Source: Zingiber officinale (Eukaryota; Streptophyta; Magnoliopsida; Zingiberales; Zingiberaceae). From it: a stretch of 64,000 bases of DNA. The translations under genes and the position numbers were made by a program. Location of the stretch: contig NW_024589881.1 in the NCBI RefSeq assembly GCF_018446385.1, forward strand, positions 124,001 through 188,000, in the 5' to 3' direction. A model generated the notes under the pieces. It was not told the DNA's origin and ran no database searches. It was given only the letters and a program-made list of their open reading frames with translations. Positions 33,397 to 57,588 of the stretch are shown here, piece after piece (the first letter of the stretch is position 1; every line of letters starts with the position of its first letter).

Positions 33397-34137
33397 TACA
33401 AAGAAAAAGAGATTACCCTTGATGCGAAGCCCTTCGCAAATCCCGCTCGTCCAAGGTTCGCCGGATCTCAAGGTTGTCAAGTGTACAACCCTCTATGTGT
33501 ATCCACACGAACAAATCTATGGAGAGAACCTCTAAAGATGTGCTAACAACCTTAGAGGATCAGCAATGGTGGAGGAGAGGGAGAGAAGAAAGGTAGAGAG
33601 GAAGAAGAAGGAGGTTACCAAAACCAAATGAAACTCACACTTGTAAAAATTAAGTGACCGACCACCTTTTTGAGGCTTATAAACCTCCATGGGATTTCAA
33701 GAGTCACAACTCTTGATCTCCTTCATGAGGTGGCACACACATGTGCTAGCCTTGATGATGTGGTACATCATCATTAGTCCACTTAATGCCAACTCACAAA
33801 TGAGGTGGCAATGGCCAAGTCAAACTTGACTTTTCATCTTCCTCTCAAGTCAAGTCAAACTTGACCACTTCTCTGCCATGGTTGATCAAATCTAACCATT
33901 GGTTCAAGTAAATTTTAATTTAATGAATCTCTATTCATTGAATTAAATTGGCTCAATGAGTCTAAGTCTAAATTAGACTCATTTAACACATGAACCGAAT
34001 TGAGTCCAACTCAATTAGTTTACTTTGGATTACTCTTAATCCAATTTGGTTCATCACATGAACCTAATCCTCTTGGTTCATCATATGAACCTAATCTCCA
34101 TCTAATTTCCCTTTGTGTGTGACCCTATAGTTCTTGT

Positions 34138-35260
34138 TGTTGGTGCGGGTAGCACTAACGGTCTAACCCAGGTTTTGATGAATGACAAATAGGTTAAGTT
34201 AGTTGTGTTGTTGTCTGACACTTTGATCGAGTGTGCAGGAGAAGTCCAGACAGGTCGACGGGCTGACCAGATGTCTGGCACGAAGTCCAGCTAGGTCGAC
34301 GGGCTGACCGGATAGCTGGCGAGAAGTCCAAGCGGGTCGACGGGCTGACCGGACGCTTGGCGAGAAGTCCAGCTAGGTCGACGGGCTGACCGGATAGCTG
34401 GCGAGAAGTCCAAGCGGGTCGACGGGCTGACCGGACGCTTGGCAAGAAGTCCAGACGGGTCGACGGGCTGACCGGACGTCTGGCAGGTAAGTGAGGTAAG
34501 TCACTGGAGGGGAGTGACTGCGAGGACGCATTCCCGGGAAGGGAACATTAGGCGTCGATCCGGCTTAGATCCATTTCGGATATCTAAGTCGAGATCGTGA
34601 CTAGATTCCGGTCTCGGAAAGATGGAATCTAAGTCATACTCTTGATGCTAATTTTTATTACTTAGCGTATCTGTAAAAATGTGCTAACAAACTGTGCTGC
34701 AGGGTTTATTTGCCTCGGACTAACCGTGTTTTGCAGGAAAGCTGGGTCCGGCGCAAAGTGGTCCGGGAGGATCCAGCGCCCGGAGGCAAATTTATCCCGG
34801 GACGACGTTGACACTTGGAGCATGCTGGTTGGGAGTGTTGTCACATTCCGTGCGCCGGAAGGGATCCAGCGCCGGCAAGATATAAAAGAAGCCTGCGAGC
34901 TTCAACATATCGCTTCGAGAACTCGAGTCCAATCACTCTCCGCTCTGCGCTCCAACAACGTTCACAAAGCTCCGACGACTCACTCCGCTCTTTTAATTCA
35001 TTGTTTGTCGGTTAGCTTTGTTTTCTTTCTTTTCATTAGCAATATTTGTACGTAAATTGTAATTATCCGAATTGCTAGTGAATTGCCCAACGAAAGTACT
35101 CAAGGAGTACAGGCCTTCGAGTAGGAGTCGTCACAGGCTCCGAACGAAGTAAAAATCAACAGTGTTCATCTCTTTACTTCTTTACTTTTCCGCTGCGTCT
35201 TAACTCGAGATTTTCGAATTGATATTCACCCCCCCCTCTATCGAATCTAACGGTCTTACA
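34138..35260 (+). repeat. 5' LTR of the gag-only element (1,123 bp)
   Basis: It runs from TGTTGGTGCGGGTAGC to CGGTCTTACA. It contains the six-unit hairpin minisatellite (34246-34483) and a TATAAAAG box at 34880-34887. It matches the 3' LTR closely except around 34735-34870, where the two differ by several small indels. Confidence 0.93.
34246..34483 (+). repeat. Six-unit 41-bp hairpin minisatellite, 5' LTR copy
   Basis: Units start at 34246, 34287, 34328, 34369, 34410 and 34451. Each has arm 1 (7 bp), the block GGTCGACGGGCTGACC, a 3-bp spacer and arm 2 complementary to arm 1. The arms are CCAGACA/TGTCTGG, CCAGCTA/TAGCTGG, CCAAGCG/CGCTTGG (units 3 and 5; CCAGCTA again in unit 4) and CCAGACG/CGTCTGG. 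Confidence 0.95.
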
Positions 35261-35262
35261 AG

Positions 35263-35274
35263 TGGTATCAGAGC
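35263..35274 (+). promoter_or_regulatory. Primer-binding site (Met-tRNA)
   Basis: TGGTATCAGAGC lies two bases after the LTR end, the standard start point of minus-strand synthesis in plant Copia elements. Confidence 0.92.
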
Positions 35275-35501
35275 AGGTACCACTCTGATTTGGTGCAACC
35301 ACCAATCAGACAGGGGGTGAAATCATTTTTTTTAACAATTCCAAACTGATATTATTATCTTTTTGGAAGATTTTTTCTCGTTGCATTTAAAATCTAAATT
35401 GGTACAACACCAACTTAGAGTTTCTATTTCTCCCGCACTGCTAATCCAAGACGAAGTCTTGGGATTTTTTTTTCCAGTTAATTTAGTGTGTGCAGGATAA
35501 G

Positions 35502-37161
35502 ATGTCTCAACAAGAAGGCTTCAGCACAGTACGTCCTCCCCTATTCAACGGGGATGACTTTTCGTACTGGAAGAGGAGAATGGAGGTCTACATGAAGACA
35601 GACTACGACCAATGGATGAGCGTCACAAGGGCTTACAAAATTCCAGTAGACAACTCCGGGAACATAGTAGACCCTGAAGACTGGACAAATGATATAAAGA
35701 AAAAGGCATCAATTGAAAACAAAGCCATCAATACTCTACACTGCGGACTAACACGAGAAGAACTGAACCGGGTCGGACCGCATCAAAACGCTAAGGAGCT
35801 TTGGGATAAACTGATCGAGCTGCACGAAGGAACAAGCGACGCGAAGGTAACAAAAAGAGATTTGCTGTTAAATAAAATTTTTAATATAAAAATGCAGGAA
35901 GGAGAAACGGCAAGTCAGCTCCACGCGAGGGTCAAAGATATCCTCAACGGTCTCCACGCGATTGGCCACCAAATGGAGAACCGAGACTTAATCAGGTACG
36001 CGTTAAATGCTTTTCCGCGAAACAATTTGTGGGCATCAATCGTAGATGCCTACAAAATTTCAAAAAATTTATCTAAATTAAAATTGGATGAACTCTTTTG
36101 TGAATTAGAACTTCATGAGCAAACTAACGCCGGGGTCGAGAAAGGTGTAGCTTTATTTGCAGGTTCCTCTAAAGAAAAGAAGAACAAGCCCGAATCTGAA
36201 GAAGATTCCGATCAAGACTCTGAAGACGAAGAACACCTGGTGAACCTGGTAAGGAAAATATTCACCAGGAAAAAGAGAAGCTTCAACAAACAGGATCTTC
36301 AGAAGATCAGTTCGCCAGCCGACTCAAGAAATGTCACATGTTTCGAATGTAACAAAAAGGGGCACTACAAGAACGAATGCCCAAGATTGAAACTTGACAA
36401 ACCAAAGTCAACAAAGAAGAAAGCCCTCAAAGCAACATGGGACGATTCCTCCTCAGACGAATCGGAAGGAGAAAGGCAAAAGCACCAAAGTCACCTCACG
36501 GCGATGGCTCGCGAAGCTGAAACGGAAGACGAATCGGAGGAATCGACCCGAATTGAGCCACGAGTCCGCACTCGTTTCCGAAGGTTCCGAAGAGGTATAC
36601 CTAAACTTAAATCGTAAATTCTTTAGAATTATCTCGTGTTTAAATAAAAAATTAGTTAAATTGGAAAATAAAAATAAATCGCTTCTTGAGGAAAATCAAA
36701 ACCTCAAGGAACAATTAAAAAATTCGAATCCAACTCAAGATCGAACACTTGAGGAGGAGAATTTATCATTAAAAAATGAAATTAATAAGTTAAAAGATTT
36801 GTTGAAAAAATTCACAACAAGATCTAAAAATTTAGATTTAATTCTAAATAACCAAAAGGTATGCTATAATAAAACCGGACTTGGATATAAGTCAAACTCA
36901 AACAAAACCTTTAAATCATTATTAACCCAACACAAAGCAACTAAACAAGCTTGGGTCCCGAAAGCGTGCTTAACCACGCAAGTAGGACTTAATCAATTCT
37001 ATATACCTAAAGATAAAATACATTATATAAACTTGAATAAATCAGATCAAAAACTAAAATATAAATCTAAATTAAAATCAAAATTCAAAACTCAACAAAA
37101 TTTAGATTATCACCAAGTTGATTATACCTATAAAAAGAATCGACACAAACCCAAAATCTAA
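35502..37161 (+). pseudogene. SIRE-type Gag of the gag-only element, one frameshift
   Basis: The ATG at 35502 opens a 371-codon frame to 36617. It has a Gag core (LFNGDDFSYWKRRMEVYMK near 35540, UBN2-like with ELWDKLIELHEGTSDAKV near 35800) and a zinc knuckle CFECNKKGHYKNEC at residues 280-293. Near 36575 the true coding shifts by one base and continues in another frame to 37161. That part has a coiled-coil (KLENKNKSLLEENQNLKEQL) and the conserved LLKKFTTRSKNLDLIL and TGLGYKS motifs. The same C-terminal extension is seen in element X. The product would assemble particles and bind RNA. Loss of frame suggests this copy is inactive. Confidence 0.88.
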
Positions 37162-37690
37162 ATTAATGGCCAATAATTCAGGGGGAGGCTCCAGAATAGC
37201 TGTCACCTCCAAAACTAACCTACCCGACAGGGTAACCCAAAAACAAACTAACCCGGCAGGGTAATTAGGATTAGTTAAAGAGAGACCAAGTTTAACTTGA
37301 CTCATGGTACTGGTGAAGTTTTTGGATGATAGTACGTTAGGGAAGCTTGGGCATCGCATGTCTAGAAAGATATGGCTTCGATCTAGTGCATTTGGCCAAG
37401 TGGAACTGACCGAAGCTACCCTTAAACGAATCCTAACCAGTTAGACCAAGGTTTAATACTAAGCTCCGTGGATAGGACTATTCGGAAAACCTCGAAAGGT
37501 TGGTTACTTCTAATGACGTCCAAGTGACTCACCAAGCTTAGAAGTTTATCCGAAAAATGCCTATTTGTTGAGACCAAAGCTAAACCTGAATCTAACACAA
37601 GTTAAACCAAACTCTGTAATTAAATCTAATTCATCTCACAAAATTATAAGATTCCCTGATTGATAATCTAGATCGGGTGAGATGAATAAG
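37162..37690 (+). other. Post-gag remnant of the gag-only element
   Basis: Decayed sequence continuing the SIRE-type region. Fragments such as LTHGTGEVF and LDQGLILSSVDRTIRKTSKG are visible in translation, but there is no open frame. A GGGGGAGG purine box lies at 37178. Confidence 0.5.
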
Positions 37691-39130
37691 GATTAAATTA
37701 ATTAATTTTCAAACGAAATTAAAGTTAATTAAAATTAAATTTTGAATCTCAAATTCAAATTGAATTAAATTAATTAAAATTAAATTTTGAATTTCAAATT
37801 AAATTAAAATTAAATTTTGAATTTCAAATTCAAATTAAATTAAAATTAATTTAAGTTAAATTTTGAATTTCAAATTAAAATTAAATTTCGAATTTCGAAT
37901 TTCAAATTAAATTTCGAATTTCAAAGTAAATTAAAATTAATTAAAATTAAATTAAATTAAAATTAATTTTTTTTTTAAAAAAAAACTATTTTAAAAATTA
38001 AACTTAATTTTTTTAACTTAAAAATTTATTTTAAAACTTAATTTTTTTTAACTTAAAAATTTATTATTTAAAAATTTATTTTAACCTAAAAATTATTTTA
38101 AATTAAAAATTTATTTTTACTTAAAAATTATTTTAACTTAATTATTTAAAAAAAAACTATTTAAAAAAAAAATTCTTTAAAAAAAAATATTTTAAATTCT
38201 TTAAAAACTATTTTAAAAATTCTTTAAAAACTATTTTTAAAAATTCCTTAAAAACTATTTTAAAAATTTTTAAAATTCTTTAAAAATTATTTGAAAAATT
38301 CTTTAAAAACTATTTTTAAAATTCTTTAAAAATTATTTGAAAAATTCTTTAAAAACTATTTTTAAAATTCTTTAAAAACTATTTTTTTAATTCTTTAAAA
38401 ACTATTTTTTAAAATTCTTTAAAAACTATTTTAAAAATTCTTTAAAAACTATTTTTTTAAAATTCTTTAAAAAACTATTTTAAAAAATTCTTTTAAAACA
38501 TTTTAAAAATTATTTTAAAAACTCTTTTAAAAATCATTTTAAAAACTTTAAAAAATTCTTTTAAAACATTTTAAAAACTCTTTTAAAATCATTTTAAAAA
38601 CTTTAAAAAATTCTTTTAAAACATTTTAAAAATTATTTTAAAAACTCTTTTAAAAATCATTTTAAAAACTTTAAAAAATTCTTTTAAAAATTCTTTTAAA
38701 ACATTTTAAAAATTATTTTAAAAACTCTTTTAAAAATCATTTAAAAAACTTTAAAAAATTCTTTTAAAAATTATTTTAAACATTTTAAAAATTATTTTAA
38801 AAAACTCTTTTAAAAATCATTTTAAAAACTTTAAAAAATTCTTTTAAAAATTATTTTTAAACATTTTAAAAATTATTTTAAAAACTCTTTTAAAAATCAT
38901 TTTAAAAACTTTAAAAATTCTTTTAAAAAATTCTTTTAAAACCTTTTAAAAATTATTGTTATTTTAAAAATTATTTTAACTTAAAAATTATTTTTACTTA
39001 AAATTATTTTAATATAAAAATTATATTTTTAAATTATTTTAACTTAAAAATTATTTTTTTAAAAAAATATATTTAAAAATCATTTAAAAAAATATTATTA
39101 AAATCATTTTAAAACTATCTAAAAATTTTG
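37690..39130. repeat. AT-rich tandem-repeat block inside the gag-only element
   Basis: Three zones follow each other. First come AAATTAAATTTTGAATTTC units (37690-37960), then TTCTTTAAAAACTATTT units of ~22-25 bp (38160-38480), then ~70-bp units mixing CTTTTAAAACATTTTAAAAATT and CTCTTTTAAAAATCATTTT blocks (38490-38945). GC is extremely low and there is no coding potential. Confidence 0.9.
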
Positions 39131-40878
39131 TATCATTTTGAAAAATTCTTCTTATTTTTTCACTATAATGAAATTTAGTTAACTTAAAAATAGTGATAAT
39201 AAATTATTTCTATAGATTATTTTCACTTTAAAAATTATTATTTTGACTTTAAACTCATTTTTAATCTTAAACATCATTTTAACCTTAAAATTAATTTTTA
39301 ATTTGACTTAACTAAAAATTAAATCTTAAATTAAAACTTAATATTGAAATTACAATTAAAATTAAAATTTTTAACTTAAACTTAAAATTAAACTTAAACT
39401 TAAATTAACTACTAATATTAATTTAAATCTAAAATCAAAACTGAATCAAACATATGTTAATTGACATAAAACATATTATAAAAATCATTTTAAATTCCTT
39501 TTAAATGCTGTTTTAGAAATCCCTTTAAAATTTTTTTTAATAATAATAATAATTATAATTAACACTTTCATTGACCAACTCAATCAAGTAATATGAAATT
39601 TAAATTATTTCACTAAGTATTAAATTATTAAATCAAGTAAAAACTAATCAATAAATTATTGATAATGCTTAACTGTTATTGAATTAATAAAATCTTATCT
39701 TATTTAACCTTAAACTAAAGTTAAGCACCTGAATCTAACATTAATTAATAATTGATCAATCAAATTCAAATAAACAGTTATACCAAGGATACAGAGATAA
39801 TAATATATGTATTACTAAATTAGACAAATGTGTTAGAGCTTTGAAATTTAACACAACCAAACCTTAGTATTAAAGGGGAGATATTAAATTAAGGGGAGTA
39901 ACCAATTCAGGGGGAGGTTCAATTTCTTTTAAATCCCCTAGAAAAATTAATAAATAAGGAGGATTAATAAAGGAATATCAAATTCAGGGGGAGGTTTATT
40001 TTTTAATTATCTCCTTAAGCGTTATTTTTTAATCTTCTCTTTAAAATCTCTCTAGAAAATTCTACCTCATTTAAAAAAAATTTTTTTTTACTTTGAATAT
40101 TTTTAGCAAATATTTTCAAAATTTTAAGTATCAAGTTCAGGGGGAGAAATTAATTAAAATTTTGTGTGTTTTTTTACATCTATTTTATAACTAACTTATT
40201 TTTAAAACACCAGTTTTCATAAAATTAAATTTAACTAAGTTTAATCCCACCTAATTTTTAAACCTGATTTTAAAAGTTAAATATTGCAAATTTAAACTTA
40301 TTCAGTTTTTTAACATATGCTTGAAAATTCAACTTTCCAAACTTAGCTTTTATCAAATTAGCCTTAAAAATTTATTTTGGCAAAAATTTTACTTCTTGAA
40401 AAATTATTCTTACTTGTTTAATTTTTGCTTTGTTTTGAAAAATCGAAGTTGAAAATTTACCTTTTTGAAAAGTAAATGTTACTTAAACATGAAAAGTAAA
40501 TTTGAAAAACCTGTTTTGAAAATTTAATCTTGAAATTTAGACCTTATACACTTATGTTTGAAAATTAAACTTAAAAGTTTTCAAATCTTTATACTCCCCC
40601 CAGTCAACTTGATCTTTTCTTGGATTTAAAAATTGTACTTTTGTCCTTGAATCATGAACCAAACTCAGTTATTTTTCAAGATTAAGTGTTATTGTTTTAA
40701 GTAACTCTACACTATGATTGTTTACCCTTGTTTTTTTGATGAATGCCAAAGGGGGAGAAGGGTTAGGTGGTTAAGTTAGCTAAACCAATTTGAAAACACA
40801 AACTAACTTTAAAACCACACAAATGCATGTTGTTTCGTACATATGCTTTCACTAACTTAACCAGGTTGTCATTCCATC
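39131..40878 (+). other. 3' non-coding region of the gag-only element with repeated purine boxes
   Basis: No frame is supported. AATTCAGGGGGAGG-type boxes occur near 39903, 39981 and 40136, and AAAGGGGGAGA near 40748. They resemble the polypurine tract at 40879. Confidence 0.7.
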
Positions 40879-40892
40879 AAAAAGGGGGAGAT
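40879..40892 (+). promoter_or_regulatory. Polypurine tract of the gag-only element
   Basis: AAAAAGGGGGAGAT sits immediately before the 3' LTR start. Confidence 0.92.
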
Positions 40893-42032
40893 TGTTGGTG
40901 CGGGTAGCACTAACGGTCTAACCCAGGTTTTGATGAATGACAAATAGGTTAAGTTAGTTGTGTTGTTGTCTGACACTTTGATTGAGTGTGCAGGAGAAGT
41001 CCAGACAGGTCGACGGGCTGACCAGATGTCTGGCACGAAGTCCAGCTAGGTCGACGGGCTGACCGGATAGCTGGCGAGAAGTCCAAGCGGGTCGACGGGC
41101 TGACCGGACGCTTGGCGAGAAGTCCAGCTAGGTCGACGGGCTGACCGGATAGCTGGCGAGAAGTCCAAGCGGGTCGACGGGCTGACCGGACGCTTGGCAA
41201 GAAGTCCAGACGGGTCGACGGGCTGACCGGACGTCTGACAGGTAAGTAAGTCACTGGAGGGGAGTGACTGCGAGGACGCATTCCCGGGAAGGGAACATTA
41301 GGCGTCGATCCGGCTTAGATCCATTTCGGATATCTAAGTCGAGATCGTGACTAGATTCCGGTCTCGGAAAGACGGAATCTAAGTCATACTCTTGATGCTA
41401 ATTTTTATTACTTAGCGTATCTGTAAAAATGTGCTAACAAACTGTGCTGCAGGGTTTATTTGCCTCGGACTAACACTGTTTTGCAGGTAGGGAACAGTGA
41501 GGGTCCGGGCGCCCGGAAGTCCGGGCGCCTGGAAGGGATCCAGGCGCCCGGAGGCAAATTTTATCCCCAGGACGACGTTGACACTTGGAGCATGCTGGTT
41601 GGGAGTGTTACGTCACATTCCAGGCGCCTGGAGCAGCATATAAAAGAAGCCCCAGGCAGGAGCTTCAACATATCAGTCTTCTGAGAACTCTGAGTCCAAT
41701 CACTCTGCTGCTCTGCGCTCCAACAACGTTCACAAAGCTCCGACGACTCACTCCGGCTCTCTTTTTAATTCATTGTTTGTTAGTTAGCCTTGTTTTCTTT
41801 CTTTTCATTAGCAATATTTGTACGTAAATTGTAATTATCCGAATTGCTAGTGAATTGCCCAACGAAAGTACTCAAGGAGTACGGGCCTTCGAGTAGGAGT
41901 CGTCACAGGCTCCGAACGAAGTAAAAATCAACAGTGTTCATCTCTTTACTTCTTTACTTTTCCGCTGCGTCTTAACTCGAGATTTTCGAATCGATATTCA
42001 CCCCCCCCTCTATCGAATCTAACGGTCTTACA
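40893..42032 (+). repeat. 3' LTR of the gag-only element (1,140 bp)
   Basis: Same ends as the 5' LTR. It carries the same six hairpin units at 41001-41238. In unit 6 the second arm has one change (CGTCTGA), breaking one pair. The 41490-41640 segment differs from the 5' LTR by several indels. Confidence 0.93.
41001..41238 (+). repeat. Six-unit hairpin minisatellite, 3' LTR copy
   Basis: Units start at 41001, 41042, 41083, 41124, 41165 and 41206, in the same arm order as in the 5' LTR. Confidence 0.95.
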
Positions 42033-42985
42033 CTTATAACGTTGGCAATGCTCCTAAACCCATTTAGAAGCATAAGTAATGAGCGGTATCTAGCAACACA
42101 TCATTGCTACCCAAGTTACAAGAATGTTGAGATCCAACATCACCTTGTGACTACTAATTGTGACCCCTCACAATATATGACAAGTGTCCTTCTATCCTTG
42201 ACATCTAGATTGATCAATATGAGGCATAGACCGTGTCATCCTCTAATCAATCTAAATCTTAAATCCCAAGTAGACTCACTCAATCAAATGAGCTCAACAT
42301 CTCATATTGACTCATTTGGGCATGACCATGCACTTAGTGGTCTCACTCTATCAAGAATAATGATGTCACTCCCATCATATAGGAGGGATAGATCCCATCT
42401 ACATCACTCACATCCCTCCGCATAATTCGTTACATACCCAGTAATCACCTTTATAGTCCACCCAATTACGGGTGACGTTTGACGAAGCCAAAGTATGTAA
42501 CTCCTTATGCAGGGAACCATGGTGACTTCAGGTCCAAGGACTAATAGTCATACTAATAGCCACATGAGAAAGTATATGACACTCATATAATGATTCATGA
42601 TACTTTCTCATGGCGGGTCATTCAGTATACATTCTCCAATGCATTCCCATGTGTCAAATTGATATCTCCATATCCATGACTTGTGAGATCAAGTCATCGA
42701 GTTGACCTACATAATAGTCTCGTCGCATTAACATTATCCTTGAATGTTAATAATTGACTAGGAATGATTAAGAGTAGTGTTCCCTATATCATCTCACTTC
42801 TATTCAACCAATCGATTGATATAGGTAAGAACCTTCTACTCAAGGATGCTATTATACTTAGTTATTTGACACCAATACAAGTAAGCATAATAACCATAAA
42901 CAAATGCCTTTATATACATAAGAATATGATACAATGAGTCCATACAACAATCATCAAATGATTGGCTCTAGGGCTCTAACTAACA

Positions 42986-50380: not shown

Positions 50381-50886
50381 GACACTTGGGGCAGTCGACT
50401 GATACCAGCCTGATATTGTTTTTCTTAGCTGTTCTTGATCATGTAAACTCGTTTAAATGTATGGGATCTATGGGGGGATAAATACATGAGTTTAGGGTCA
50501 GTTTGGATGATAAGTTTTCAACAATTGGGATATTGTTGGAGAACTTTTTGGATGTTAGGCAAAGGGGGAGAAGTAAGGTTTAGTTGGGAAAACCTTAGTG
50601 CCTTTGTGTACGGGGAGCCTTGTGATAGGTTCTTAAAAAGCCTTGTGATAAAATCCTAGCTCAATGGGGAGCCTAGGTGTAGGGGGAGCCTTGGCATAGG
50701 TTCCAATGCATGATGCATTTTCCATTCGGCGGTTGCCAAGTGTGTAGCCTTGGCAACGTAAGTCCATTCGGCGGAGTAAGTCCAAGTGTGTAGCCTTGGC
50801 ATCGTAAGTCCATTGTATTAGCATGTTTATTTGCTAGTTGTTTTCCCTAACTTAAACGTATTGCCAAACACCAAAAAGGGGGAGAT

Positions 50887-51916
50887 TGTTGGAGCAATCC
50901 CAATGGTCCGCGGGACCATGTGTTTTGGTGTTTGGGCAAAGGGTTTAAGTTAGGTTTACCCTTGTTATTTGATATGTGTACTTGAGTTGTGCAGGATTGC
51001 AGGTGACACATGTGACTCAGGTTGACAGCTTCGGGTCCGGTGAAGGATGGAGCATCCGAGGGACCGTGGACAAGGTAGCAAGGACAATGGCCGAGGGAAG
51101 CGACTTCGAGGCATACGCGAAGGATGACATTGGAGACAAGCCGCGGGCTTGGATGCATCCGAGGGACGAGAGCCAAAGGAAGTAGGCTTGAAGGCAAGAG
51201 GTCAAAGCTGCAAGGGAAGTATCAAATGAGTCATAAGGGTGAGGGTACGAGTGCATGAGAGATTGTACTCGGAGTAAAATCCTAGTTTTAGGGTTTTACT
51301 ATAGCGGCACTGTAGCAGTTCTTGTAGTGTACTGTAGCAGTTACTGTAGCGCACTGTAGCAGTCGACTGGTGATGAACCAGTCGACTGATGCACTGTAGC
51401 ATAGCCGTTGAGAGAGCCGGTGGGCTGGCACCAGTCGACTGGTGCAAGGACCAGTCGACTGGTAACGGGCAAATTAGGTTCTGATTTGTTCCAAGCTCTA
51501 TAAGAAGGAGCTTGGTATGGCCGGCCAAGGTGACGAAATTAGACTTGGTTAAAGCCTAATTAGTAGTCACCAAAGTGCTCAAGGTTCCCTTGTGTCCAAG
51601 TGTTGTTGGTGAGGTTTCTCCACCTACAAGGAGGTTTGAGCTAGCCGGAGGTCTTTCGGGGAATAATCCACCAACGGATAGGGATCGTCCACCTTACGGA
51701 CACGCCGTGGAGTAGGAGCTTTATCTCCGAACCACGTAAATCGGCGCGTGTTGGTTTGCTTGCTCTTTCTTTATCTTTGTACTAGTATTTGGCTTTCGTA
51801 TTTGTGTTTGTATTATTTGTATTCCGCTTGCAAACTAACAAATACGTAGAGAGCGATCAATTTGGGGGCGCCGTCTATCCAACCCCCCTTCAAGCCGGCC
51901 GCAAGATCCTCCAACA
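50887..51916 (+). repeat. LTR of element X (left, 1,030 bp)
   Basis: It runs from TGTTGGAGCAATCCC to GATCCTCCAACA. It contains several ACTGTAGCAG decamers (51293-51405), two palindrome pairs (51362/51381 and 51434/51454), and a TATAAGAAGG box at 51499. Confidence 0.93.
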
Positions 51917-51918
51917 AG

Positions 51919-51930
51919 TGGTATCAGAGT
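51919..51930 (+). promoter_or_regulatory. Primer-binding site of X
   Basis: TGGTATCAGAGT: one mismatch in the last base from the usual Met-tRNA site. Confidence 0.85.
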
Positions 51931-51970
51931 AAGGCCGCTCTCTGTCGGACTAACCTTCGAGGAACCAAAG

Positions 51971-53641
51971 ATGACTAGCTTGATAGATCCGCCAAAGTTC
52001 GAAGGAGGAAGCTTATGGGACATCACCTTTTGGATGGTGAAGATGAAGAACTTCTTCGAGACGGATTGGGACACAATGATGGTGGTGGAAGAGCCATTTG
52101 AAGTCCCTAATGACAAGAAAGGGAAGAAGCTCCGAACACGACATTGGACGGAGGAGCAAACCTCACGATCGGAGGCAAACTCAAAGGTAATAGCAATTTT
52201 AATTGATTTATTGCCTCCTAATATGATAAATGGTGTAGGTAAATATGAGAACACCCATGAATTGTGGAGAAAAGTGAAGAAATTTCCATGGGAGGAATTT
52301 TTGCCTACACAAGAAGAAGAAGAAAAATCCGAAGAAAGTGATGAAGTGGTCCAAGAGGAGAAGAAGGACCAATCGGATGTGGAGCCCAAGGAGATGGGCT
52401 TAGTAGCTCAAGAAGAGGAGGAGGAGCAACTGGAAGTTGAGTCATGCTCAACATCCGAGGAGGAGAAGGAAGATGAGGCATCATCTACATCCTCAATAAT
52501 TGAAGAAAATTCCAAGGCAAGTGAAGAAGAAGAAGAAGAGGTCTTGGAAGTGGTTAATCTTGCAAGCACCTCCACCGAAGCAAAGTCAAAGGACCACATT
52601 GTGTGCTTCGGGTGCAATGAGAAGGGACACTATAAGAATAGATGTCCTATGGGTAAGAAGAAGGTAACTCCTAAACCCAATCAAGTTATTTTGAATACTA
52701 ACATGGGTTGTAGGAATAAAGAAGCCCAAAAGAAGGAGAAGAAATGGCACATAGTGTGCTTCACGTGTGGTGAGCGGGGTCATTACCACACCAAATGCCC
52801 AAAGAAGAAAGAAATCAAGAAGTTGGCGCATTTGAAGAAATGGGAGAAGAAGAGAAGCAAGAGTCAAGGGGGAGCTTCAAGGGTAAGGGAGGTATACCCT
52901 AACTTGAAGGTTAATTCAAATTTAAACTCTTTCATGCATGCTAGGAAAAATAATGTTAATCATTATATGCCCATGCAAAATTTTGGTTTCAAATATCATG
53001 ATCGGAATAGAGTAAATGTAGATCATAACCCTAGGAGACCTATGCATGATAGACCTAGGAAAGTTAAATTCTCATTACCTAAGGAGAAGAAGGTAATAGA
53101 GAACCAAGGCATTAATCCCAAGAAGGGGAGACATATGCCTAGGAAAGGTAGGTCTGGGAATGTCCAAGGTGGACAAATTAACTCTAGGGTTAGGAACCTA
53201 GAGAAGGAAAATCAAGGTTTAAGGGGAAAGCTTGATAAGTTAGAACAATTTCTTAAGAGATTCAATGTTGGATCTAAGGAATTAAGTATGGTGTTGGGTA
53301 GTCAAAGACCTAACAATGATAGATCGGGCTTGGGATACCGATCTAGTCCCTCCAAGGCCAAAAGGAGACCATGTGCTAGAGTGACACATGATAAGGGCAA
53401 GGGAGAGTCATCCAAGGCCAATAAAAAGAAATATGCTAGGGTTGCATATGATTATAGCAAGGATGATGTGTCCAAGGTCAAGAAGATAAGGAGATCTTCT
53501 AAGGGACATCATTGTGGTTTGGTCACAATAGATGAGTCACCTAGGGAGGTGACTAAGGTAAAGAGCTCTAGGGGGAGCTCCAAGAGTCAATTTGGGACCC
53601 ATGGCCAATGGATCTCAGGTGGGTTTTACTTGGGAGTCTAG
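51971..53641 (+). CDS. Intact Gag-only ORF of element X (556 aa, two zinc knuckles)
   Basis: The ATG at 51971 closely follows the primer site. The N-terminus (residues 1-100) is a Copia Gag start (PPKFEGGSLWDITFWMVKMK, HELWRKV). The usual UBN2 middle part is missing, and the sequence jumps at about residue 102 to an acidic Glu-rich stretch (114-192). Two CCHC zinc knuckles follow (212-225 and 263-276). Then come basic regions, a coiled-coil (RNLEKENQGLRGKLDKLEQF), and the SIRE-type FLKRFNVGSKELSMVLGSQ...GLGYRS motif. The frame is fully open, unlike almost every other retroelement gene here, which suggests recent insertion or selection. It would package RNA, using enzymes from another element. 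The family function is known; activity is inference. Confidence 0.88.
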   Translation: MTSLIDPPKFEGGSLWDITFWMVKMKNFFETDWDTMMVVEEPFEVPNDKKGKKLRTRHWTEEQTSRSEANSKVIAILIDLLPPNMINGVGKYENTHELWRKVKKFPWEEFLPTQEEEEKSEESDEVVQEEKKDQSDVEPKEMGLVAQEEEEEQLEVESCSTSEEEKEDEASSTSSIIEENSKASEEEEEEVLEVVNLASTSTEAKSKDHIVCFGCNEKGHYKNRCPMGKKKVTPKPNQVILNTNMGCRNKEAQKKEKKWHIVCFTCGERGHYHTKCPKKKEIKKLAHLKKWEKKRSKSQGGASRVREVYPNLKVNSNLNSFMHARKNNVNHYMPMQNFGFKYHDRNRVNVDHNPRRPMHDRPRKVKFSLPKEKKVIENQGINPKKGRHMPRKGRSGNVQGGQINSRVRNLEKENQGLRGKLDKLEQFLKRFNVGSKELSMVLGSQRPNNDRSGLGYRSSPSKAKRRPCARVTHDKGKGESSKANKKKYARVAYDYSKDDVSKVKKIRRSSKGHHCGLVTIDESPREVTKVKSSRGSSKSQFGTHGQWISGGFYLGV

Positions 53642-54740
53642 AGGAGCCATGGAGTGTGCCAAAAGGTTTGGAGATGGATTTGAGTCTCAAACCTAGGGAT
53701 TTGGCACACATGGTTTATGTTTCATGCAAGAAATATGACATTTGGGGGTCATATAGTATGATAATTGGTTTTGGATGTATAGATTCCATATAAACCAATG
53801 CTAGGGATGCATTGTGGATTGGTATGGGCAAATACATCAAAAGGAAGCCAAAACTAGGACTTTAGGTCAAGGTTCAATTGAACCATTTAGCTAGTTTTGG
53901 ATTTTATGTCAATCTTGGGATTGGTAATAGATACATTTTGTAATGTATTTTTCCCAAGTAGACAAGGGTACAATAGACCTCTCCACAAAATTTGGGAATT
54001 TTTGGAGGTCTAGGGAATTTCTGGTGCATTTCTGAAGTTGGCCTGAAAAGGCTGATTTTTTCAGAAATAGGGTACCAGTCGACTGGTACAGATACCAGTC
54101 GACTGGTAACAGTGTTTTTAAGCACAGAATGCCTCTGTAAGCTCATTTTATCGATACCAGTCGACTGGTGATGATACCAGTCGACTGGTAACAGTAGATT
54201 TCGACCACAGAATGTTTCTGTAAGGTTGTGTCGAAGGGGTCAGTCGACTGGCACTTGGGGCAGTCGACTGATACCAGCCTGATATTGTTTTTCAGAGCTG
54301 TTCTTGATCATGTAAACTCGTTTAAATGTATGGGATCTATGGGGGATAAATACATGAGTTTAGGGTCAGTTTGGACGATAAGTTTTCAACAATTGGGATA
54401 TTGTTGGAGAACTTTTTGGATGTTAGGCAAAGGGAGAGAAGTAAGGTTTAGTTGGGAAAACCTTAGTGCCTTTGCGTATGGGGAGCCTTGTGATAGGTTC
54501 TTAAAAAGCCTTGTGATAAAATCCTAGCTCAATGGGGAGCCTAGGTGTAGGGGGAGCCTTGGCATAGGTTCCAATGCATGATGCATTTTCCATTCGGCGG
54601 TTGCCAAGTGTGTAGCCTTGGCAACGTAAGTCCATTCGGCGGAGTAAGTCCAAGTGTGTAGCCTTGGCATCGTAAGTCCATTGTATTAGCATGTTTATTT
54701 GCTATTTGTTTTCCCTAACTTAAACGTATTGCCAAACACC
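53642..54740 (+). other. 3' non-coding region of X with palindrome pairs
   Basis: No frame is supported. Three pairs of ACCAGTCGACTGGT-like palindromes have GTCGAC at 54078/54098, 54160/54180 and 54243/54263. A repeated GAATG(C/T)CTCTGTAAG segment lies between them. Confidence 0.8.
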
Positions 54741-54754
54741 AAAAAGGGGGAGAT
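54741..54754 (+). promoter_or_regulatory. Polypurine tract of X
   Basis: AAAAAGGGGGAGAT directly before the right LTR. An identical tract precedes the left LTR at 50873-50886. Confidence 0.92.
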
Positions 54755-55774
54755 TGTTGGAGCAATCCCAATGGTCCGCGGGACCATGTGTTTTGGTGTT
54801 TGGGCAAAGGGTTTAAGTTAGGTTTACCCTTGTTATTTGATATGTGTACTTGAGTTGTGCAGGATTGCAGGTGACACATGTGACTCAGGTTGACAGCTTC
54901 GGGTCCAGTGAAGGATGGAGCATCCGAGGGACCGTGGACAAGGTAGCAAGGACAATGGCCGAGGGAAGCGACTTCGAGGCATACGCGAAGGATGACATTG
55001 GAGACAAGCCGCAGGCTTGGATGCATCCGAGGGACGAGAGCCAAAGGAAGTAGGCTTGAAGGCAAGAGGTCAAAGCTGCAAAGGAAGTATCAAATGAGTC
55101 ATAAGGGTGAGGGTACGATTGCATGAGAGATTGTACTCGGAGTAAAATCTTAGTTTTAGGATTCTACTGTAGCAGCACTGTAGCAGTTACTGTAGCGCAC
55201 TGTAGCAGTCGACTGGTGATGAATCAGTCGACTGATGCACTGTAGCATAGCCGTTGAGAGAGCCGTTGGGCTGGCACCAGTCGACTGGTGCAAGGACCAG
55301 TCGACTGGTAACGGGCAAATCAGGTTCTGATTTGTTCCAAGCTCTATAAGAAGGAGCTTGGTATGACCGGCCAAGGTGACGAAATTAGACTTGGTTAAAG
55401 CCTAATTAGTAGTCACCAAAGTGGTCAAGGTTCCCTTGTGTCCAAGTGTTGTTGGTGAGTGTTGTGGTGAGGTTTCTCCACCCACAAGGAGGTTTGAGCT
55501 AGCCGGAGGTCTTCCGGGGAATAATCCACCGACGGATAGGGATCGTCCACCTTACGGACACGCAGTGGAGTAGGAGCTTTATCTCCGAACCACGTAAATT
55601 AGCGCGTGTTGGTTTGCTTGCTCTTTCTTGTTCTTTGTACTAGTATTTGACTTTCATATTTATGTTTGTATTATTTGTATTCCGCTGCAAAACTAACAAA
55701 TACGTAGAGAGCGATCAATTTGGGGGCGCCGTCTATCCAACCCCCCTTCAAGCCGGCCGCAAGATCCTCCAACA
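54755..55774 (+). repeat. LTR of element X (right, 1,020 bp)
   Basis: Nearly identical to 50887-51916. It lacks part of the ACTGTAGCAG decamer run and has a 10-bp insertion near 55455. Confidence 0.93.
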
Positions 55775-57588
55775 TCATATTCCTATATATTAATAAAGGC
55801 ATATTTTTATGGTAATTATTCTTACTTGTATTGGTGCCAAATAACTAAGTATAATAGTGTCCTTGAGTAGAAGGTTCTTATCTATATTAATTAATTGGTT
55901 GAATCGATAGTGAGATGATATAGAGAACACTACTCTTAATCATTCCTAGTCAAGTATTAACATTCAGGGGCAATGTTAATGCGATGAGACTAGCATGTAG
56001 GTCAACTCAATGATTTGTTCTCACAAGTCATGGATATAGAGATATCAAGTTGACACATGGGTATGCATTGGAGAATGTATACTGAATGACCCACCATGAG
56101 AAAGTATCATGGATTATTATATGAGTGTCATATACTTTCTCATGTGACTATTGGTATGACTATCAGTCCTTGGACTTGAAGTTACCATGGTTCCCTACAT
56201 AAAGAGTTACATACTTTGGTTTCGTCAAATGTCACCCGTAACTGGGTGGACTATAAAGGTGATTATTGGGTATGTAACAAATTATGTGGAGGGATGTGAG
56301 TGATGTAGATGAGATCTATTCCTCCTATATGACGGGAGTGACATCATCATTCTTGATAGAGTGAGACCACTAAGTGCATGACCATGCCCAAATAAGTCAA
56401 TATGAGATATTGAGCTCATTTGTTTAGAGTGAGTCAACTTGGAGTTCAAGATATAGATTGATTAGAGGATGACACGGTCTATGCCTCAATTTAATCAATC
56501 TAGATGTCAAGGATAGAAGGACATTATCATATATTTTGAGGGTCACAATTAGTAGTCACAAGGTGATGTTGGATCTCAATATTCTTGTAACTTGGGTAGT
56601 AATGATGTGTTGCTAGATACCGCTCATTACTTATGCTTCTAAATGGGTTTAGGAGCATTGCCATTGTTACAAGAACCTATAGGGTCATACACAAAGGGCA
56701 ATTAGATGGAGAATGACTTCATATGATGAACCAAGAGGATTAGGTTCATATGATGAACCAAATTGGATTAAGAGTAATCCAAATTAGACTAATTGAGTTG
56801 GACTCAATTTGATTCATGTATTGAATAAGTCTAATTTAGATTTTGACTCATTGAATCAATTTAATTTAATGGATAGAGATTCACTAAATTAAATTGACTT
56901 GGATCAAAGGTTGGATTTGATCAACCATGGGAGAATTTAAGTCAAGTTTGACTTGACTTGAGAGGGAAGATGAAGGGTCAAATTTGACTTGACCTTGACT
57001 TGACCAAAGCCACCTCATTTGTGAGTTGGCATTAGGCCGGCCAATGATGATGTGACACATCATCAAGGCTTCTTTACTTGGTCAAGATTGACATGACCAA
57101 GTGCCACCTCATGAGGGAGACCAAGAGCCATGACTCTTGGTATCCCTTGGAGGTTTAAAACCCTATAAATGTGGCCGACCACATTATGGTGCTTGAATAG
57201 CATTATGTGCTCATTCAATCTATCTTCTTCCTTCCTCTCTTCTTCTTTTCTCTCCCTCTCATCCTTGCTGAGACTCCTTGGAGTGTTAGCACACTCTAAG
57301 GTTTCCTCTCCATCTCTTGTTCGTGTGGACATTTCTAGAGGTGTGTACACTTGAACACACTTTAGATCCGACGGACCTTGGACGAGCGAGATTTGCGAAG
57401 GGCTTCGCTTCAAAGGTATACTCACCTTCTTGTAGATCTAGTGTAGATCTAGGATAGGAAACATGTATATGTAAATTTTTATATGCCTTTGTACGGATCC
57501 ACGGCAAGACTTTGGGGTTTCCGCAACGCAAAAAATGATTTTTGCGCCCCGAAAGTCCCAACAGTTTTTGCGGCTCAAATTGCTAACA
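55775..57588 (+). repeat. 5' LTR of A2 (5'-truncated)
   Basis: Matches 47363-49176 almost base for base. The end TGCTAACA is followed by the primer site. Confidence 0.92.

Follow-up and report, generated by a model that had tools for sequence, protein, structure and literature searches.

Individually paired hairpin stems in a 41-bp U3 minisatellite of a gag-only Sirevirus-type element from Zingiber officinale

The window, by which we mean the whole stretch of 64,000 nucleotides of Zingiber officinale DNA that was analysed, contains a retrotransposon with a gag frame and two LTRs, each carrying a tandem array, and a second element. The features to which we refer are the following.

34133-34137: target-site copy CTTGT, flanking the 5' LTR
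34138..35260, + strand: 5' LTR of the gag-only Sirevirus-type element
34246..34483, + strand: six-unit array of the 5' LTR, stem order A B C B C D, every unit perfectly paired
34881..34887, + strand: TATAAAA, the TATA box in the 5' LTR, lying some 400 bp downstream from the array; the 3' LTR copy is at 41639
35266..35274, + strand: primer binding site TATCAGAGC
35487..36617, + strand: gag reading frame with Retrotran_gag_2 and a CCHC zinc knuckle (Pfam)
40851..40958, + strand: inverted repeat spanning the junction of polypurine tract and 3' LTR, arms 40851-40874 and 40935-40958, 88% complementary
40883..40892, + strand: polypurine tract AGGGGGAG, then AT, then the TG that opens the 3' LTR
40893..42032, + strand: 3' LTR of the gag-only Sirevirus-type element
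41001..41238, + strand: six-unit array of the 3' LTR, order A B C B C D, one outer pair of unit 6 broken
41504..41632, + strand: second palindrome cluster of the U3, with TCCGGGCGCCCGGA, TCCGGGCGCCTGGA, TCCAGGCGCCCGGA and TCCAGGCGCCTGGA
42033-42037: target-site copy CTTAT, flanking the 3' LTR and identical to the 5' copy at four of five bases
about 50888-55800: second Sirevirus-type element with a gag-like frame

The Pfam search covered two frames, the gag frame (35487..36617) and 36391-37161. No stop-to-stop frame longer than 65 codons is present between 37602 and 40868, so that an intact pol has no room in the element. In this respect it resembles the non-autonomous TR-GAG elements, which we take likewise to consist of LTRs and a gag frame without pol. 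Judging from its non-coding hallmarks, the element is of the Sirevirus type (Ty1/copia). The polypurine octamer AGGGGGAG lies 10 bp upstream of the 3' LTR next to an AT/TG attachment site, and further exact copies occur at 40139 and 40750, as is typical of the Sirevirus linker; a poly-C integrase signal is found near both LTR ends (C8 at 35229 and 42001), and TATAAAA stands at 66% and 65% of the LTR length, the mid-LTR placement of Sireviruses. The primer binding site is read in the context CA AGTGG TATCAGAGC (35259-35274), that is after a 5-base spacer, and the accessible part of the Sirevirus description gives TATCAGAGC after the intervening sequence ATTGG, with variants (PMC2829016). The junction inverted repeat, also a Sirevirus feature, has 24-nt arms (88%) and its right arm begins 42 bp inside the LTR, the average in the same excerpt being 28 bp (PMC2829016). 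The likeness to Sireviruses, as far as that excerpt describes them, thus extends to polypurine tract, primer binding site, attachment site, poly-C signal and junction inverted repeat.

Each array is composed of six units of 41 bp, as the preliminary description had reported with the correct arms and coordinates (34246-34483 and 41001-41238); it had taken these spans for the LTRs themselves, which in fact run from 34138 to 35260 and from 40893 to 42032. Every unit contains a 33-bp quasi-palindrome with a long constant centre, and its hairpin has a second, inner helix of 4 bp (GGTC/GACC) and a bulge of 3 nt. The 16-base core occurs 12 times exactly in the window and twice with three mismatches, against a chance mean of 0.09 at up to three mismatches. 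Four stems alternate around this core, with left arms CCAGACA (A), CCAGCTA (B), CCAAGCG (C) and CCAGACG (D) and their complements as right arms. The only broken pair is, as previously noted, that of unit 6 of the 3' LTR (CCAGACG/CGTCTGA), all other window units pairing over seven bases. The array occupies the region from 110 to 350 bp into the LTR and, being upstream of the TATA box (about 400 bp), sits in the U3; from LTR biology it should then be present twice in the element DNA and once in the genomic RNA.

The compensating change between arms first pointed out in the preliminary description is real for the four paired types, although it does not amount to twelvefold evidence: the two LTRs are copies of each other and units 2 and 4, as well as 3 and 5, share the same arms, so the window holds four independent stems, linked on the shortest tree by five paired changes. 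With the same number of right-arm changes placed independently, five matched changes among the window stems would have a chance of about 1.3e-6. This figure, from the window stems alone, speaks against the absence of any constraint, a reading in which a few ancestral stems, produced by chance and in part through C-to-T decay of the two arms, were amplified by tandem duplication and transposition.

Clusters of this general kind have a named precedent, a point on which the preliminary description, which knew of no named system with this design, needs correcting. Palindromic repeated motifs (RMs) of 10-20 bp, with one consensus per element, are described upstream of the TATA box of Sireviruses in the accessible part of Bousios et al. 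2010 (PMC2829016). Like them, the array is a cluster of units with dyad symmetry that lies upstream of TATA in the upper LTR half; it differs in its 41-bp unit, in its several different, individually paired stems, and in its start at about 110 bp into the LTR, against 200-400 bp for the RMs (PMC2829016, same excerpt). The position and the dyad of an RM are therefore present in the array, with a centre that differs from the plain CGG-CCG palindrome. The second cluster of the same U3 (TCCGGGCGCCCGGA) does show a repeated palindrome with the CGG-CCG core upstream of TATA, the RM signature in that excerpt (PMC2829016). This second cluster is complete in the 3' LTR (41500-41635), and several bases of it are lost in the 5' LTR (34740-34875); the loss may reflect true instability or an assembly error. 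On the literature examined, parts of the papers included, a palindrome cluster in a Sirevirus U3 is already known and the several individually compensated stems are new; a literature search returned no paper joining Sirevirus, Zingiber and retrotransposon, which does not exclude a prior description.

The exact core is found 48,737 times in the 3.09-Gb genome (211 contigs). From 100 core places listed, all on C1, together with the window element, 35 stretches were fetched, and they gave 47 arrays with 213 units. Arms were counted in 205 of them, eight being excluded because template mismatches or arm differences exceeded five, and 122 of the 205 have perfect seven-base pairing. In this sample only A, B, C and D are perfectly paired at more than two places (CCAACTA/TAGTTGG at two), and the most frequent unpaired form, present at 7 places, is a B whose last base differs.

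Genome-wide, six paired stems recur: to the four of the window are added E (CCAAACG/CGTTTGG) and P (CCAGATA/TATCTGG), neither of which is present in the window. Unit types and arrays differ by single-pair steps, the six stems being joined in the order B-P-A-D-E-C by single compensated pairs at pairs 5, 6, 7, 4 and 5. The left arm of E, one compensated pair away from C (CCAAGCG/CGCTTGG), is carried by 421 units; among 100 listed, 54 match at both right bases, 38 of these being paired throughout; one-sided forms account for 25 (C-like) and 16 (D-like), and 5 are other. At 12 of 16 E loci (15 places picked for a perfect E plus one partner LTR) the array reads A-B-E-B-D, when units are typed by nearest stem and one-sided changes tolerated; the remaining four have shorter, longer or different arrays. 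The third place of A-B-E-B-D is occupied by E, where the younger array carries its first C. E arrays have 1.5 core changes per unit (46 other units, those with the GAA core form excluded from the mean) versus 0.21 in arrays with a perfect C (97 units), a gap that does not cleanly measure age because selection by exact core favours low core change in the latter. Being more decayed, the A-B-E-B-D arrays are likely older than those with C, and E in place of C supports paired evolution within active lineages. As for P, its left arm is found in 473 units genome-wide; among 100 listed, 19 (counted by eye) have the matching right bases at pairs 6 and 5, 14 have the right arm of B and 67 have neither, mostly that of A. 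Each of the four places fetched for P has it or a one-base derivative, in arrays whose linker is different, and two of these places, 6.3 kb apart on the same strand, look like the LTRs of one element.

Two further forms recur at several places, the unpaired CCAGACT/TGTCTGG (T.T at pair 7) and a bulged C form with an inserted A. In three instances (L082/L083, L041 and L092/L093) the paired assumed LTRs of an element differ by whole or part units, and array length may still be changing after insertion.

These stem series bear on a second possibility, namely that a polymerase switches template inside the hairpin during reverse transcription or replication and copies one arm onto the other, so that a new base is matched in one event and no selection is involved. 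The accessible part of Monttinen and Loytynoja 2022 (PMC8794818) reports that stems can arise and be preserved through template switching, with paired multi-base change between arms as here, and in the window A/B and D/C indeed differ at two adjacent pairs; moreover, such copying needs no gain for the element and suits an array that is reverse transcribed. However, P and E split these double steps into single pairs, which stepwise change explains equally well. The hairpins of that excerpt are those of RNA genes. Such copying would be expected to leave an inverted centre as a by-product, which is not seen: of 115 exact cores in the stretches fetched from C1 and the window, none has a core of opposite orientation within 140 bp. 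We regard arm copying as possible, though doubtful.

A covariation test on aligned units and the folding of LTR transcripts had been proposed in the preliminary description. With a second parser, 200 units gave 122 distinct sequences, of which 109 were aligned and 13, mainly near indels, were left out by hand. In the 109, standard pairs fill 92.8% of the pair cells versus 84.0% in shuffles and 13-39% with a slid partner; the covariation score is 0.346 versus 0.182, and none of 500 shuffles reaches it. For all 122 the values are 92.0% and 83.0%, again with no shuffle of 500 as high. Pairing and covariation across units thus exceed those of the shuffles, with the qualification that these values depend heavily on the four types passed down by descent and do not count independent events. 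The outermost pair is formed in only 84 of the 109 units, and pairs 4-7 each show two or three Watson-Crick types.

The latter variation would not easily be tolerated by sequence-specific half-sites of a dimeric DNA-binding protein, for which the dyad would be kept by the binding of both halves and not by folding, and pairing is retained where sequence is not. Such half-sites would fit the nearly constant core and outer CCA/TGG, and also the palindrome ACCAGTCGACTGGT carried by the other Sirevirus-type element in the window; Sirevirus RMs were themselves first read as cis-acting regulatory motifs, according to the same partial source (PMC2829016). We nevertheless consider protein binding very unlikely as the reason for the dyad.

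As for folding, single units adopt the proposed hairpin both as RNA and as DNA (z -1.3 to -2.6). The array as single-stranded DNA folds better than 199 of 200 shuffles (z -2.46), with units 1, 3, 5 and 6 as local hairpins; the whole array as RNA does not fold significantly better than its shuffles (z -1.33, 21 of 200 at least as good).

The individual copies behave differently from the unit types. A left base foreign to the four window stems is found at pair 7 in 327 units genome-wide, and among 100 listed with the new base none has the matching right base; at pair 6 there are 232 such units, with one match in 100 listed. The 13,986 B units of the genome comprise, at pair 4, 13,013 intact, 362 changed on the left only, 586 on the right only and 25 on both arms. 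The double change exceeds the expected 16.3 (P = 0.027, the expectation being uncorrected for copy age), a margin in which we see no sign of selection on recent copies. It is merely 25 versus 362 left-only in a pair that shares the CTG context of pair 4 of D, which we count in favour of a constraint on the fold. The preliminary description had named one-sided change in genome-wide copies, as often as chance predicts, as the observation that would speak against it, and the one-sided change seen here argues against maintenance within individual copies. The sampled copies are presumably mostly dead insertions, of which one-sided decay is expected; as a consequence, individual copies say little on active lineages.

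The same B units show more right-arm C-to-T (586) than left-arm G-to-A (362) changes, despite a symmetric local context. Selection on an RNA strand was considered for this excess of G.U over A.C (p = 3e-13) and rejected: over all positions of the C1 sample the counts are 44 and 54, with no general excess, and the mark of an RNA is thus absent.

Transmission was judged by spacing alone: where a variant occurred twice on the same strand at a distance of 4-12.5 kb, the two places were treated as the LTRs of a single element and the variant as older than the insertion, the counts covering the first 100 places listed per variant, from the first contigs only. Among the matches listed, one-sided arm changes occur in 11 LTR pairs and 376 single sites (four listings) and a loop change in 4 pairs and 90 single sites (Fisher p = 0.51); broken arms are thus not visibly disfavoured in this comparison, the power of which is low because the pairs are few. 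With a lower limit of 4.5 kb, the ratios among the matches listed are 4/90 for the B-left/C-right chimera (159 copies), 15/40 for intact B and 15/63 for the C|C junction. The rarity of the chimera against C|C (p = 0.003) was considered as a sign of selection and dismissed, as the loop-change control is equally 4/90, so that C|C probably represents no more than a lineage of greater age. If the assembly is the published ginger one, it derives from nanopore reads (PMC8342452), and its tandem arrays, chimeric units included, may contain errors. Some unpaired stems have spread as well: by spacing, T.T at pair 7 is in two LTR pairs, A.C at pair 5 of C in three (counted by eye) and B/C chimeras in four, and an A/B-like chimera is present in both stretches of one assumed LTR pair. 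Such mismatches and chimeras, which seemingly passed reverse transcription uncorrected, argue against very efficient arm copying and equally against strict selection.

The spread of unpaired stems and the one-sided change of individual copies would suit the absence of constraint, as would the small number of events, about five paired steps, four of them single-pair transitions (G:C/A:T or C:G/T:A), behind tens of thousands of copies. On the other side, decay of both arms is infrequent in the one case open to counting (25 of 13,986 B units at pair 4), and the step from E to C opposes decay, if E is older as the decay of its arrays suggests. We hold unconstrained descent to be unlikely.

On balance we favour, as the probable explanation, a U3 array of quasi-palindromes of the RM kind whose fold was kept in active lineages and which decays freely after insertion. 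RM-type tandem quasi-palindromes would have been enlarged into a 41-bp minisatellite with stems differing between units; in active lineages the pairing of the arms would be retained, with base identity at pairs 4-7 free to drift; the folded form would have mattered either as (i) a DNA hairpin or cruciform in the U3, or (ii) hairpins of the genomic RNA within its 3' untranslated region; and inserted copies would decay free of the pairing constraint. Pairing was kept through two-sided change between unit types and arrays, and in individual copies change is one-sided, so that the preliminary proposal of a maintained fold or of copying through hairpins is partly supported, by the unit types, E and P included, and not by individual copies, which do not covary. 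The simplest explanation is that the fold was constrained in lineages that stayed active for long. Such a structural constraint is likely rather than proven, hairpin-templated arm copying being its main rival since it would leave nearly the same pattern.

A variant of structural selection adds that neighbouring stems are kept different, which would let each unit fold separately instead of pairing with the next. Adjacent units of the same type number 8 of 132 versus 24.3 expected after shuffling within arrays (C1 sample), and the ABCBCD and ABEBD designs both alternate. The pattern is suggestive only: the two designs have a common ancestry, and 765 C|C junctions, as well as two adjacent P units at L131, one of the four P loci, count against it. 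We find this variant quite unlikely.

The family, whose units number in the tens of thousands and whose stems form a stepwise series, is a natural test bed for structures exposed to silencing, and the series separates the keeping of a sequence from that of a fold, and selection from hairpin-templated copying. Work of Bousios et al. from 2016 reportedly identified maize Sirevirus LTR palindromes as small-RNA hotspots. As presented in the accessible parts of two papers (PMC5311732, PMC10760457), those palindromes, like the present array, form a variable cis-region of a Copia LTR that is rich in palindromes and predicted to be strongly structured. The latter paper (PMC10760457) asks, for Copia elements and Sirevirus palindromes, why structures are retained that lay a transposon open to small-RNA silencing.

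The second element of the window has polypurine tracts at 50876 and 54744, a primer binding site at about 51919 and a 600-codon frame with two CCHC-like motifs (identified by eye). Its palindrome ACCAGTCGACTGGT lies near the LTRs (51360-51463 and 55276-55309) and upstream of the second polypurine tract (54073-54190), and the arms CCAG/CTGG of this palindrome resemble the outer arms of the 41-bp unit. Finally, the array of the first element is directly followed by CAGGTAAGT (34484-34500; 41239 onward), which also stands behind the last unit in several genomic copies and which we take to be a good plant 5' splice-site consensus.
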